Notes under the pieces: model-generated
What the model was told of the DNA's origin: nothing
The model's input: only the letters and a program-made list of their open reading frames with translations
Databases searched by the model: none
Assembly: GCA_013297885.1 (NCBI GenBank)
Contig: JAAFIR010000043.1
Coordinates: 1-32,839, forward strand
Length of the DNA stretch: 32,839 nucleotides
DNA from: Leptospirales bacterium
GTDB taxonomy: Bacteria; Spirochaetota; Leptospiria; Leptospirales; Leptospiraceae
Reading direction: 5' to 3'
Translations under genes and position numbers: made by a program
Shown: in pieces, positions 2,499-32,173 of the stretch
Numbering within the stretch: the stretch's first letter is position 1
Layout: each line of letters opens with the position of its first letter

Positions 2499-2508
2499 AT
2501 TTTTCATA

Positions 2509-2530
2509 TCGTGGGATTTACCTCCCACGA
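2509..2530 (+). terminator. Terminator of the acyl-CoA dehydrogenase gene
   Basis: TCGTGGGA (2509-2516) pairs exactly with TCCCACGA (2523-2530) across a six-base loop, starting 11 bases after the stop codon. The stem is GC-richer than its surroundings. The tail is only moderately T-rich. Confidence 0.65.
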
Positions 2531-2610
2531 TTATTAAATTCAAATCCCTCTAAAACTTTTTCACAACTTTTAAAACCTTTTTTATTTGTTCTATTTTGCA
2601 TTTAAATAAG

Positions 2611-2757
2611 GGGCGAATAGGCATACTCTATACTTCTGTTTTTCGATACTATTACTTCACGAAAGTATGACAGGCATCTTTTTACCGTCAAGCTCTCAGC
2701 TTCTTCAGAAACCTCAGACTAAAGTCCGAAGCTATTCAGAAACGCTTCGATATCGCA
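2611..2757. repeat. Intergenic modular palindromic repeat, copy A
   Basis: Read on the minus strand, this copy matches the one at 19122-19274 along nearly its whole length, about 145 bases, including a region shared only by these two (TCGTGAAGTAATAGTATCG). The + strand starts with GGGCGAAT and ends CGCTTCGATATCGCAAT. The core hairpin (about 2704-2741) has an inner stem CTTCGGACT/AGTCTGAGG on the minus strand with two G-T pairs. It lies downstream of the dehydrogenase terminator. Confidence 0.75.
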
Positions 2758-3908
2758 ATTATTAAAAGCAACAAACCTTACCTACCTAATTTTGTTTCTA
2801 TTAACCAAATTTTATAAAATGATTTGACTTTTTGAACCATAGAGTTCGCTAGTGTTGAAGAATTTTTTGCAATAAGTTCGTTTTTAAGAAAACTTTTACA
2901 CAGCAAAATCAATTTAATATTTATGAAAATAAAATTTATTTTTCAAAAAAAACAAGTTGCTGAACTCAGAGAAATGGATGAAGTTGTTGAGACTTCATGT
3001 AAACTATTAGTCCCAGAATTGTATTGAGAAGAATTAAACTGAAAAATTAAAAAACATGGAAGCTAAAAAATTTATTTTGCTCATTTACTAGTAAAATATG
3101 AAATTTATTTGAAGAGCGGAATTGTTCCCTATTCAAGTCGGTTAAAAACTGAATACCATCAAAAGGGACAAAATTTAATTCTGAGAGATTTTGAACCGTG
3201 GAAAAGAGACTGGTTGGTAATGAAGTTGTATAGGGCTGCATTTAATTTTTCGATTAATAAACTTTTTGTGCTATTACTTCGGCTCGACCTTATGGACTTT
3301 GCTGAAGTTGTCGAATCTGCCTTAAACCTAGACTTCCCTGTTGAAACGGGTAAGGTGTGGGTTTTCCAATACAGGGGATGTTTTCAAAACAGAAAAATTC
3401 ACCAATATGAAAGAGTTTTTCAATTTGGTTAGATTTTTCTATAAAAAAACTAACAAATAAATTTTTCAGCAGTAAAAAAGTCATCATTTAATCTAGTAGT
3501 CAATGACGTAATTGGATCCAAACAGTTTTCTCGATTAGGTGTTTATTTACTATTAAACTTAAGCTACTTAAATAAATATTTTTTATGTCCTATAGTTTAA
3601 CGAGGCTGTTAACTTATTGAATAATTTTATTATTAAAGACAATTCAATCATGGTTGTAAAAAAAACTTTCTTGAACTATAATTTGGAATAAATCCTATAC
3701 CGATTGACAATAATAATTACATATTTTAAACAACAAAATTCAATCGGGACATACAACTAGCCAAAAGTTATGGGTAATTACTTTTGTAAGCTGGTATATA
3801 TTATTAAACTTAATAATCTTTTTAACATAGTAAAACTTTTTTTTTTATTAAAAAATTTTACCTTGCAAAGAGTTTAAGTTTTTGGTATTTAACTACAAAA
3901 GGGTTTAT
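2758..3908. other. Gene-poor stretch of about 1.15 kb
   Basis: No supported gene is found on either strand. Open frames such as 3109-3432 (+) and 3290-3487 (-) have no ribosome site, no recognisable fold and overlap each other. A 34-codon frame at 2923-3027 (+) reads VAELREMDEVVETSCKLL and could be a gene remnant. Short matches to the first 120 bases of the window occur at about 2836 (GAACC...GTTCGCTAGT) and about 3470 (CAGTAAAAAAGTCA). The last 100 bases before 3909 are very AT-rich and probably hold the transporter promoter. The stretch may be decayed coding or mobile sequence, but nothing identifies its origin. Confidence 0.5.
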
Positions 3909-19277: not shown

Positions 19278-19871
19278 TTAAATTGTGAGTCTAGACTTAA
19301 TTGCTTTACCTAGAGTGTATTGATCTGCATATTCAATTGTGCTGCCGATTGTCACACCATGTGCAATGCGAGTGATTTTGAGACCGATGGGTTTTAGCAA
19401 TTGGCTGATATAATTTGCAGTAGCGTCTCCTTCCAGAGTTGGGTTCGTTGCAATTAAAACTTCTTCAATTGGTTCTTTGTTGAGGCGTTCTAGTAGTTCT
19501 TTGATTTTTAATTGGTCAGGACCAATTCCATCAAGTGGAGAAATCACACCGTTTAACACATGGTATCTGCCACGGTATTCGTTTGTGTTTTCAATAAAAA
19601 AAATATCTTCAGGTTGTTCCACGATGCAAACAATTTTTGCATTTCGTTCTGTTGATAAACAAATTTCACAAATTTCTGTTTCAGTTATCGCACCGCAGTT
19701 TTTACAAAATTTTAAATGTTCTTTTACTTCATTAATTGATGAAATAAAATTTTGAAAACTAGACTGATCCATTCTCAAAATATAAAATGCAATTCTGTAT
19801 GCAGATTTTTTCCCAATCCCAGGCAAGCTGGAAAGAGAATGAACTAATTTTTTTAATAAGTTGGAATCTAT
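19278..19871 (-). CDS. recR: Recombination protein RecR, apparently starting at ATA
   Basis: RecR acts with RecO/RecF to load RecA at gaps. From 19871 the protein is 197 residues, the usual size. It has an N-terminal helix-hairpin-helix ([13 protein letters not shown], about 14-26), a four-Cys zinc site (Cys56, Cys59, Cys68, Cys71), and a Toprim domain ([12 protein letters not shown] to EGDATANYI). No in-frame ATG, GTG or TTG exists upstream of the TTG at 19826, and that TTG would remove 15 residues, including [11 protein letters not shown] before the hairpin. An ATA at 19871-19869 has GGAG seven bases upstream, overlaps the ybaB stop by one base, and restores full length. The ATA start is my inference. 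ATT codons further upstream are an alternative. Confidence 0.85.
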
Positions 19872-20221
19872 TAGGAAGCTCCGCCACCAAATAATTTTGA
19901 CAACTCGTTAGGATCAAATCCACCAGTAATAGATTTCATTTCATGAGCTTGAGCTTCTTTTGCTTTGTTGATAGCTTCGTTTGTTGCAGACAAAATTAAA
20001 TCTTCAAGCATTTTCATATCATCTCCATCAAACATAGATTTGTTGATTTTAATATTGGTAATATTTCCTTCACCGCTTGCAGTAACATCCACCATTCCCG
20101 CACCAGCAGAAGCAGTTACACGAATGAGGGCAATTCTTTTTTGGATGGCAGCCATTTGCTCTTTCATACCTTTCATGTTTTTTAAAGTTTCAGCCATTTG
20201 TTCCATTTTTTTTCCAAACAT
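19871..20221 (-). CDS. ybaB: YbaB/EbfC nucleoid-associated protein
   Basis: The 116-residue DNA-binding protein forms dimers that bend or coat DNA. Its typical features are [18 protein letters not shown] at the N-terminal helix, [40 protein letters not shown] and [16 protein letters not shown]. The ATG at 20221 has AAGGAG at ideal distance; an upstream in-frame start would overlap dnaX. It sits between dnaX and recR, the classic dnaX-ybaB-recR order. Confidence 0.95.
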
Positions 20222-20231
20222 ACAATTCTCC

Positions 20232-21554
20232 TTAAATACCTTTAAATTTATCTGGTTCAACTTCAGAACCTAAAAATTTATCTTTTATTCCGCTTACTAA
20301 ATCAATTTTCTCAGGGCTTTTTTTTTCTTCATCATTTTTATTTTTAGTAGTTCCAACTTCTTCAGGAATAGAAAAACTTCCAGACTCAATTGCTTGTTTA
20401 AGTGTATAAATTTTATCTAGAACTCCAGAAACAGTTGGTTTGTTTAATTCTGAAATAAGTTTTCGAAATGATAATTCAAAAAAAACTTTTGTTTCAAATG
20501 AATTTCTTAGTTTTAATAAATTTAATTTTTCATAAATATTGTAAACTTGATCTGATAGTAAAAACAATGATTCTATTGGATAATTTGAAATGGATTTTGA
20601 AATTTTTTCTACATCTTCAACAGGATAATTTAACGATTCTTTATCGTTTAAATTTTCTTTAATGAGAGTTGTGGCATAAGAAAATTCCAAAAATTCCCAA
20701 AGAAATTTATTTAAGTCCACTCCATCTTTATAAGATTTATCTAATATAGAAAATAATTTATCAAATTTGGTTTCAGCTAAAACAGAATGAAGAAGTTCAA
20801 TTTGAACATCTACTCCTTGGTATCCAATCATTGCACGGATTTTTTCACCAAAAATTTTTCCATCAGTAAATGTAACTGCTTGTTCTAAAAAAGACAATGT
20901 ATCTCGAACCGAGCCATCTCCTTTTTTTGCAACCCAGAAAAGTCCTTCCATATCATATTCAATTTTTTCTTTTTTACAAAGCTCTTCTGCGTGACCTTGA
21001 AGATTTAACAAAGGAACTTTTTTAAATACAAAATCTTGACAACGTGACAAAATAGTTTCTGGAATTTTATGATACTCTGTTGTTGCCAAAATAAATACGA
21101 CATGTGGTGGTGGCTCTTCCAAAGTTTTTAAAAGTGCATTAAACGATTGGTCTGTTAGCATATGCACTTCATCTATAATATAAATTTTATTTTTTCCACC
21201 TGATGGAGAAAATTTTACATTCTCTCTGAGGTCTCGAATATTTTCAATCCCACGATTGGACGCTGCATCAATTTCAATTACGTCTGGAGAATTTCCTTTG
21301 ATGATTTCAGTACAAGAAGTACATTCGTTACATGGTTCATTTTCAGTTGGATTGGAACAATTTAATCTTTTTGCAAGAATTCTAGCAATTGTTGTTTTAC
21401 CAACACCACGAGAACCAAAAAAAATATATGCATGACCAACTCGATTATTTTTGAGAGCGTTTTTTAATGCATTAATCGCTAAGTCTTGGTAAATCACCTC
21501 TGAAAATTTTTGAGGTCTATACTTTCTTGCGAATACTAAATGGGATTCTGACAT
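20232..21554 (-). CDS. dnaX: DNA polymerase III subunit tau/gamma
   Basis: The 440-residue clamp-loader ATPase has the Walker A box GSRGVGKT (47-54), a four-Cys zinc site (Cys66, Cys75, Cys78, Cys81), Walker B IYIIDEVHMLT and the SRC motif in ETILSRCQDF. It is short for a full tau protein. The C-terminal region after the collar is a brief Lys/Glu-rich tail, so alpha/DnaB-binding domains look absent or reduced. A run of nine A (T at 20318-20326) lies 28 codons before the end. The ATG at 21554 begins MSESHLVFARKYRPQKF, where the family normally starts. It is only ten bases after the tRNA-Ser 3' end. A longer open frame through the tRNA is spurious. Confidence 0.95.
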   Translation of the reverse strand: MSESHLVFARKYRPQKFSEVIYQDLAINALKNALKNNRVGHAYIFFGSRGVGKTTIARILAKRLNCSNPTENEPCNECTSCTEIIKGNSPDVIEIDAASNRGIENIRDLRENVKFSPSGGKNKIYIIDEVHMLTDQSFNALLKTLEEPPPHVVFILATTEYHKIPETILSRCQDFVFKKVPLLNLQGHAEELCKKEKIEYDMEGLFWVAKKGDGSVRDTLSFLEQAVTFTDGKIFGEKIRAMIGYQGVDVQIELLHSVLAETKFDKLFSILDKSYKDGVDLNKFLWEFLEFSYATTLIKENLNDKESLNYPVEDVEKISKSISNYPIESLFLLSDQVYNIYEKLNLLKLRNSFETKVFFELSFRKLISELNKPTVSGVLDKIYTLKQAIESGSFSIPEEVGTTKNKNDEEKKSPEKIDLVSGIKDKFLGSEVEPDKFKGI

Positions 21555-21563
21555 TTTAATTTT

Positions 21564-21647
<84 letters not shown>

Positions 21648-21725
21648 ATAATTCCAAATTTTTGAATTCTGCTGATAAAGAAAGTAATACTTTATTAAGC
21701 TTAAAAAATTTTTTGAATAAATTTT

Positions 21726-21947
21726 GGGCAAATTTTTCTTTTCTGCTTCGCAGAAAAAATGTGGAATTAAAAATGAAGAATGTTAAATTAAATGAGTTAA
21801 AACTCATTTTTTATTTTTAATTTTTAATTCAACATTTACGAAAAACCGGGCTTTCCTCTCTTGTCAAAAAATTGTCCACCCTGCTTCTTTGAAGCACCAA
21901 GCCAAGCTGTGCAATTTTTTGACACCGAGTCAATCCCTTTTGCTTAG
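21726..21947. repeat. Intergenic modular palindromic repeat, copy G
   Basis: This copy occupies most of the spacer between tRNA-Ser (-) and the gene at 22042 (+). It starts GGGCAAATTTTT and ends CCCTTTTGCTTAG. Hairpins visible are TTCTGC-TTC-GCAGAA (about 21741-21755), AATGAGTT-AA-AACTCATT (about 21791-21808) within a longer AT-rich arm pair, and GTCAAAAAATTG/CAATTTTTTGAC (about 21863-21923). The minus strand GATTGACTCGGTGTCAAAA links it to copies F and H. Confidence 0.7.
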
Positions 21948-31122: not shown

Positions 31123-31432
31123 TTAATCATTTTTATTTTCCAATTGAATTCTATCTTTTTCAAGATGAAATTTAGAAATAATATTTCTTTTTTTTGAATC
31201 TATCCAGTCTTCTCCACCCCGATCATTTGATTTATTAAAAAATTCATCTGCTTTTTCGACTTCACCTTTAGACCAATAATAAATTGCCAAATTCCATAAG
31301 GCTGATGCAGAAGAATTACCAGAAACCAATAAAGCTTTTTCCCAATCTTTTTTGGCTAGTTCCAAATTTGGTGAATCTGTTTGTAACCATTTAATTCCTG
31401 AGCTTAATAAAGATTTCACTTCCTTTTTTTTT
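31123..31432 (-). pseudogene. Detached TPR-like C-terminal part of the lipoprotein gene
   Basis: This frame, from the nine-A run to the stop at 31123, reads EVKSLLSSGIKWLQTDSPNL, ELAKKDWEKALLVSGNSSAS, ALWNLAIYYWSKGEVEKADE and FFNKSNDRGGEDWIDSKKRN. That is a plausible TPR-like pair of helices. It has no ribosome site or start of its own at a sensible position, and it lies in the frame obtained if one A is removed from the run at the end of the upstream lipoprotein. I take it as the C-terminal third of one original protein of about 350 residues. Confidence 0.7.
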
Positions 31433-32173
31433 GGGGTTATCAGAAATACCTGCAGAGTTTTCATAAATAGGAACTTCATAATCTTCCATTTCAGGAGAAA
31501 GATTTTTTCCAATTGATGCAGATGCAACTTCTAAAGCTTTATTAAATCCTTCTTGTTCAGATGGGCAATTACTGTATGTAAGATTGGAAGAAGATTTAGT
31601 AATTTTTGCTGGTTCAGAATTTGTATATTCTTTGGACTGAGCTGTTTCTAAATTTACTAATTTTGCTTTTGCATAAACAACATAAATTAATTCTTTTACA
31701 TATTCATTATAACTAACTGTTTTATATCTTGTGCATTTACCTTGGTCATTTCTCGCTGCACAAGTTTGACTGGAACGAACAACTATAGAGCTTTTACATT
31801 CCCATGATGGTGGTCCGGGAATTTCAATAAATAATAATCCATCAATTGACAATTCTTTGCTAATATCTTTTGTGAGTCCAATTTTTTGTGCAAATGCAAT
31901 TTCATTTAATCGAACACTTCTAGCACTCACATCTACAATTCTAAAATAACGTTTTCTTTGTAGTTCATTTAAAATTGCACCATGAATTGTTTTTTGAATA
32001 TTATCATAATTATCTATTGTAGAATCATTTTTTTTATAAACATGAATTCCAATATCTTTTCCACCTTGCATAAATTCCCAAAACCCAGGTGGGGCTTCTT
32101 TCACAACAGGAATTTTAACTGTTGTAGCACAATAGGAAATCGAAATTACTAAAATAAAAATTATATAATTCAT
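31391..32173 (-). CDS. Lipoprotein, N-terminal part of a frameshifted gene
   Basis: The 260-residue product has signal MNYIIFILVISISYC with a lipobox-like ISYC (Cys15). The mature part contains ILNELQRKRYFRIVDVSARS and IDGLLFIEIPGPPSWECKSS, followed by a Cys-containing loop (CAARNDQGKC) and ELIYVVYAKAKLVNLETAQS. This looks like an outer-membrane-associated lipoprotein that binds or processes an unknown partner. After NPKKK the frame passes a run of nine A (T at 31424-31432) and ends 11 codons later with an unrelated tail (GSEIFIKLRN). With eight A the frame would continue into the TPR-like region ending at 31123. Confidence 0.75.
   Translation of the reverse strand: MNYIIFILVISISYCATTVKIPVVKEAPPGFWEFMQGGKDIGIHVYKKNDSTIDNYDNIQKTIHGAILNELQRKRYFRIVDVSARSVRLNEIAFAQKIGLTKDISKELSIDGLLFIEIPGPPSWECKSSIVVRSSQTCAARNDQGKCTRYKTVSYNEYVKELIYVVYAKAKLVNLETAQSKEYTNSEPAKITKSSSNLTYSNCPSEQEGFNKALEVASASIGKNLSPEMEDYEVPIYENSAGISDNPKKKGSEIFIKLRN

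Follow-up and report, generated by a model that had tools for sequence, protein, structure and literature searches.

The window, by which we mean the entire 32,839-nucleotide stretch of Leptospirales DNA that was analysed, carries a dnaX-ybaB-recR cluster on its minus strand (Table 1). The recR frame, present in a single copy in the genome and free of internal stops, encodes a protein that matches the RecR profile TIGR00615 at 260.5 bits against a cutoff of 162.55 over profile positions 5-195 of 196, that contains the helix-hairpin-helix, Cys4 zinc finger, Toprim and C-terminal segments (PF21176, PF02132, PF13662, PF21175) and that has matches to 12 different PDB entries of RecR sequence; recO was found in the same genome. 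At the head of the cluster, the mechanically called dnaX frame runs through a tRNA-Ser(GGA) gene and the true dnaX start lies downstream of that gene, which stands immediately upstream of dnaX and may be co-transcribed with it. A run of nine adenines in the 3' part of dnaX is a possible site of transcriptional slippage, sites of this kind being known in other dnaX genes. Elsewhere in the window, about 1.4 kb (2499-3881) hold no long open reading frame except one of 107 aa at 3109-3432, and no Rfam match was obtained there or in a search of the whole window.

Table 1. Positions of the features discussed, numbered along the window
Feature	Position	Strand	Basis
recR CDS from the proposed ATA start, 197 aa + stop	19278..19871	-	TIGR00615, 260.5 bits; single copy in genome
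TTG, sole ATG/GTG/TTG codon near the N-terminal end of the recR frame	19824..19826	-	sequence
ATA, proposed recR start codon	19869..19871	-	sequence; aligned with GTG/ATG/TTG/CTG of relatives
ybaB/ebfC, 116 aa + stop, ATG at 20221-20219	19871..20221	-	TIGR00103, 83.3 bits
ybaB stop codon, TAA	19871..19873	-	sequence
GGAG, Shine-Dalgarno-like, within ybaB	19879..19882	-	sequence
Two in-frame ATT codons upstream of ATA, unlikely alternative starts (first bases 19895 and 19892)	19890..19895	-	sequence, alignment
In-frame TAA, upstream limit of the recR frame	19908..19910	-	sequence
dnaX frame (mechanical ORF), first gene of the dnaX-ybaB-recR cluster	20232..21731	-	NF011517, TIGR02397
A9 run in the 3' part of dnaX	20318..20326	-	
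tRNA-Ser(GGA)	21564..21648	-	
ORFs meeting at an A9 run	31391..32173 and 31123..31527	-	ORF list
A9 run at which these ORFs meet	31424..31432	-	

The ybaB-recR junction and its counterparts in relatives

On the minus strand, ybaB ends in GGT GGC GGA GCT TCC TAA, and the first base of an ATA codon in the recR frame is at the same time the last base of this stop codon, which yields a one-nucleotide overlap of the form TAATA, with GGAG located 7 nt 5' of the ATA. From there the recR frame runs ATA GAT TCC AAC TTA TTA AAA AAA TTA GTT CAT TCT CTT TCC AGC and then continues TTG CCT GGG ATT GGG; the codons that precede the ATA are CGA GTT GTC AAA ATT ATT TGG TGG CGG AGC TTC CTA, and there is no ATG, GTG or TTG in the frame between its upstream TAA and the TTG. 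The product read from ATA comprises 197 residues (1 + 196), and the TIGR00615 score given above was obtained with the residues that follow the ATA. Much of this arrangement had been described in the initial annotation of the sequence: our reading of the codons back to the in-frame TAA bears out its statement that no standard start precedes the TTG, the spacing of the GGAG, the length of the product and the one-base overlap were confirmed base for base, and initiation at the TTG would, as it had claimed, delete the segment before the helix-hairpin-helix, the loss amounting to the first 15 residues. Structure prediction for the junction RNA revealed no special hairpin (z = -0.47).

The start of recR was compared over 104 loci, namely 77 from other lineages, the relatives from the order Leptospirales and the window itself. 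The start codon, be it ATG, GTG or TTG, lies at position -16 relative to the LPGIG motif in 22 of the 26 order relatives and at -15 in a further three; G005 has CTG at -16 and TTG at -18. All three congeners have GTG exactly at the ATA codon of the window, and elsewhere in the family the same codon is ATG in G006 (as in most of the order), GTG in G007 and TTG in G004, a standard start at this very codon supporting the reading of ATA as the recR start site that had been put forward at the outset. The near-cognate codon itself is not conserved, for every relative compared has a codon other than ATA at this position, and the window's recR is the only one among the 104 loci that lacks a standard start 10-25 codons before LPGIG. 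Because most of the order relatives start at exactly this codon, the ATA occupies the ancestral recR start codon; since ATA accounts for 1.8% of in-frame codons in the genome (all near-cognate non-standard codons together, for 10.7%) and here coincides in the alignment with the codon at which relatives start, it is unlikely to stand there by chance. At the G005 junction (L089), the aligned CTG lies behind GGGGGAG, with the TTG two codons upstream, and is a candidate for a second near-cognate recR start in the family.

Other genes without a standard start

A simple coding model trained on 1.16 Mb, or 25% of the genome (G+C 27.6%), was used to scan 818 genes for those whose coding signal begins well before the first ATG, GTG or TTG. 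Six further intact genes, i.e. trpC, miaA, mnmC, carD, a TPR gene and an ABC ATPase gene, were found to have no usable standard start, and this count is a lower bound because recR itself falls below the sensitivity of the scan. Seven of the 13 scan candidates in G000 (e.g. C4:77582, C33:6331 and C33:2194) look frameshifted or unplaced and were dropped. In trpC (136 codons without a standard start), the frame opens after a stop with an ATA that overlaps the stop of the upstream gene as ATAA, and ATT follows two codons later; in miaA (116 codons) an ATA overlaps the upstream TAG as ATAG; mnmC (63 codons) has ATA/ATC/ATA at its N-terminus; the TPR gene (125 codons) reads GGAGG-GGTC-ATA; the ABC ATPase gene (111 codons) has an ATT just behind the upstream stop; and carD presents CGGAG, 6 nt and ATT.

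In sister species, too, trpC, miaA, mnmC and carD are without a standard start, and near-cognate codons recur in relatives for carD, trpC and miaA. The carD codon is ATT in all four congeners, with AGGAG ahead of it in three sisters; miaA has ATC over TAA (TAATC) in G002, CTG over TGA (CTGA) in G006 and G007, and GTG overlapping TGA in G004; in trpC, no standard start is present in four relatives (G002, G003, G005 and G006), G004 and G007 have TTG (TTGA) where this genome has ATA (ATAA), and nearly all of the class outgroups read have a standard start. This recurrence implies that the missing standard starts in such genes do not stem from errors in a single assembly. In the congeners the TPR gene has ATG, so that it and recR are the species-specific cases. 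When the scan was applied to G002 it returned exactly mnmC, trpC and miaA, a recovery that counts as evidence and not as a rate, the G002 stretches having been picked partly for holding trpC and miaA; applied to G006, it returned miaA and two unplaced frames. A comparison of 81 orthologue pairs identified the TPR gene, trpC and miaA as truly lacking a standard start, and the other flagged rows, in which a usable start lies a few codons into the alignment or the flag stems from alignment ends, were discarded; no rate was drawn from these pairs, which are biased by the choice of G002 contigs holding these genes.

A stop/start overlap is found in three of the seven genes (recR, miaA and trpC), and the TPR and ABC ATPase genes lie within ~12 nt of an upstream stop. 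The stop preceding carD is ~100 nt away, and this gene has a Shine-Dalgarno-like sequence of its own. Since carD and mnmC have no overlap, reinitiation cannot explain all seven cases and a general tolerance of near-cognate codons is needed as well.

Two controls bear on the scan. Run on 300 kb of E. coli K-12 selected so as to cover both infC and pcnB, it reported one gene, infC (AUU start), and its sensitivity is thus limited, pcnB having been missed; run on G008, which has 53% G+C and belongs to a sister family, it gave two weak candidates in 250 genes. With these two genomes as controls, a general effect of low G+C may lie behind the non-standard starts. When all codons in frame were compared with those out of frame, a preceding Shine-Dalgarno sequence was enriched 14-fold for ATG and not at all for ATA or ATT in a test that is blind to fewer than 1% of genes, so near-cognate starts form a minority rather than a second general start. 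Extrapolation from seven genes in 25% of the genome gives, as a rough figure, about 30 per genome.

Alternative readings of the recR start

The main rival reading is a base error at the ATA codon: the ATA would be a sequencing or assembly error, or else a rare strain variant, and the true codon ATG or GTG would serve as an ordinary coupled start. That ATA occurs in this assembly alone, where congeners have GTG and other relatives ATG, favors such an error and counts against initiation at AUA, and a possible homopolymer frameshift is found on the same contig, at the A9 run where a 260-aa lipoprotein-like frame stops and the next frame continues with protein-like sequence; this break is either a homopolymer indel, a site of slippage or a pair of overlapping genes. 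The suspect site would, however, be an indel in an A run and not a substitution, completeness and contamination of the genome are rated at 99.99% and 0.41%, and errors cannot account for the other genes that lack standard starts both here and in sister species. We therefore regard an error or strain variant as unlikely, albeit deserving of more weight than any of the readings that follow.

Translation might instead begin at the TTG, leaving a RecR of only 182 aa, or the gene might be a fresh loss-of-start mutant on its way to being lost. The TTG is the sole standard start on offer and TTG is a common start here, being the one nearest to the onset of coding in 165 of 818 genes; yet no Shine-Dalgarno-like sequence precedes it, no other RecR among the 104 loci starts this late, and the conserved N-terminal segment, which the solved RecR chains include, would be lost. 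The substitution pattern points the same way. Relative to the congeners, the codons after the TTG differ by 69-73 synonymous-only and 47-48 amino-acid-changing differences, and in the stretch between ATA and TTG the amino acid is kept at 8 of codons 5-15, at 3-5 of these by a synonymous codon, a pattern by which this stretch is judged to be protein-coding. From its conservation with synonymous changes it follows that recR translation begins upstream of the TTG, or did so until very recently, and we consider a TTG start or a decaying gene very improbable.

Still less credible is a start at one of the two upstream ATT codons, which would add 7-8 residues: ATT is near-cognate and the likely carD start in the family, but the added residues (IWWRSFLI) come from ybaB sequence in a different reading frame and are unconserved in relatives, no Shine-Dalgarno-like sequence stands at good spacing, and the alignment places the start at the ATA. 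A YbaB-RecR fusion through -1 frameshifting before the ybaB stop can practically be dismissed, for although the recR frame lies at -1 from that of ybaB and has no stop in the 12 codons ahead of the ybaB stop, the end of ybaB (TCA AAA TTA TTT GGT GGC GGA GCT TCC TAA) contains no slippery heptamer of the form X XXY YYZ, a well-placed start with a Shine-Dalgarno sequence is available, and relatives have separate genes with proper starts.

Probable coupled initiation at AUA and start-codon choice in the family

We consider it probable that ribosomes finishing ybaB reinitiate at the AUA of recR and that the family is tolerant of near-cognate start codons; the AUA initiation, the reinitiation route and the low output of RecR are the parts of this reading that we infer from sequence. 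A ribosome terminating at the ybaB UAA would already sit over UAAUA, the GGAG 7 nt upstream would help an initiation complex to re-form on the overlapping AUA, and an ordinary initiator tRNA would decode this codon as fMet, leaving the output of RecR low and tied to the translation of YbaB. The ATA may have arisen by drift at the ancestral start codon (relatives have GTG or ATG there), the family being AT-rich (G+C ~28-36% in the stretches examined) and tolerant of near-cognate starts at several genes. An altered initiator tRNA is unnecessary, given that tRNA-Met(CAT) in L168 carries the GGG/CCC anticodon stem that is the initiator signature. IF3 keeps R99, R112, R129 and R133 and shows the substitutions R116D, R131K, R147K and R168K relative to E. 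coli. For infC, starts of the AUU/AUA type are known from other bacteria; here the first codon of infC (L091:1453-2004) is an ATG immediately behind an in-frame stop, and start-codon autoregulation of IF3 is hence probably absent.

The closest known counterpart is the E. coli ybaB-recR pair, which has the same dnaX-ybaB-recR order and the same one-base overlap (UGAUG there, UAAUA here), and for which termination-reinitiation has been proposed and coupling is presumed (PMC9610160); by this likeness, coupling of recR to ybaB is plausible here too. The two differ in that the E. coli recR start is AUG instead of AUA and has no putative ribosome-binding site near it (PMC9610160), whereas GGAG precedes the start here. 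Termination-reinitiation is a local process that declines within tens of bases (PMC10666635), and a Shine-Dalgarno motif typically precedes overlapping starts (PMC6728339). The ATGA and TGATG junctions described for it (PMC6728339, PMC10666635, PMC12548453) resemble the present ones in their -1 and -4 overlaps and in the placement of the Shine-Dalgarno sequence in the upstream gene; they use NTG starts, unlike the TAATA, ATAG, ATAA, TAATC and CTGA found here, and ATT is only mentioned as a possible cause of -5 overlaps (PMC10666635).

As to the codon, E. coli reporters initiate poorly at AUA, with values that reach 1% of AUG at most (cited in PMC12864459), and changing the rpoS start from ATG to ATA in E. 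coli reduced RpoS only up to ~fivefold (PMC12864459). Chromosomal genes with near-cognate starts comprise infC and pcnB (AUU) in E. coli and infC, ccpN and citZ (AUA) and cvfC1 (AUU) in S. aureus, where the AUA starts are proven and non-canonical sites reach ~10-30% of AUG (PMC13009471). The recR gene fits this class in that no standard start gives the conserved N-terminus and in that an ATA stands at the homologous start position, -16, with GGAG at 7 nt; it shares with these genes an intact chromosomal frame, an AUA or AUU start and a low expected output. It departs from them in that its proposed start overlaps a stop codon and is placed by comparison, the S. aureus starts having been mapped by experiment, and in that infC has ATG in this genome. 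The GTC start of Streptomyces sigR, repressed by IF3 (PMC5472188), is alike in that a chromosomal gene has its output held down by a non-standard start, and differs in its codon. A search for literature on non-canonical starts in Leptospira or spirochaetes found nothing relevant.

Genes of this kind would be shortened or missed by callers that recognise no start other than ATG, GTG and TTG, with trpC, miaA, mnmC and recR mis-started in the present genome. If near-cognate starts gather at overlaps, the junctions UAAUA, AUAG, UAAUC and CUGA would form a natural set that could test whether start-codon reading is less strict in a reinitiating ribosome than in a 30S complex formed de novo, a matter unsettled in the coupling literature that we examined. 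A broader reading, which we advance tentatively and rate somewhat short of an even chance, is that start selection is relaxed in this Leptospirales-like family, with AUA, AUU, AUC and CUG serving as regular and partly conserved starts in perhaps tens of genes per genome, often at or just behind stop codons, by way of reinitiation or an altered IF3. To have seven genes of this kind in 25% of one genome would be a marked departure from the whole E. coli chromosome, on which two AUU genes are known (PMC13009471 and references therein).
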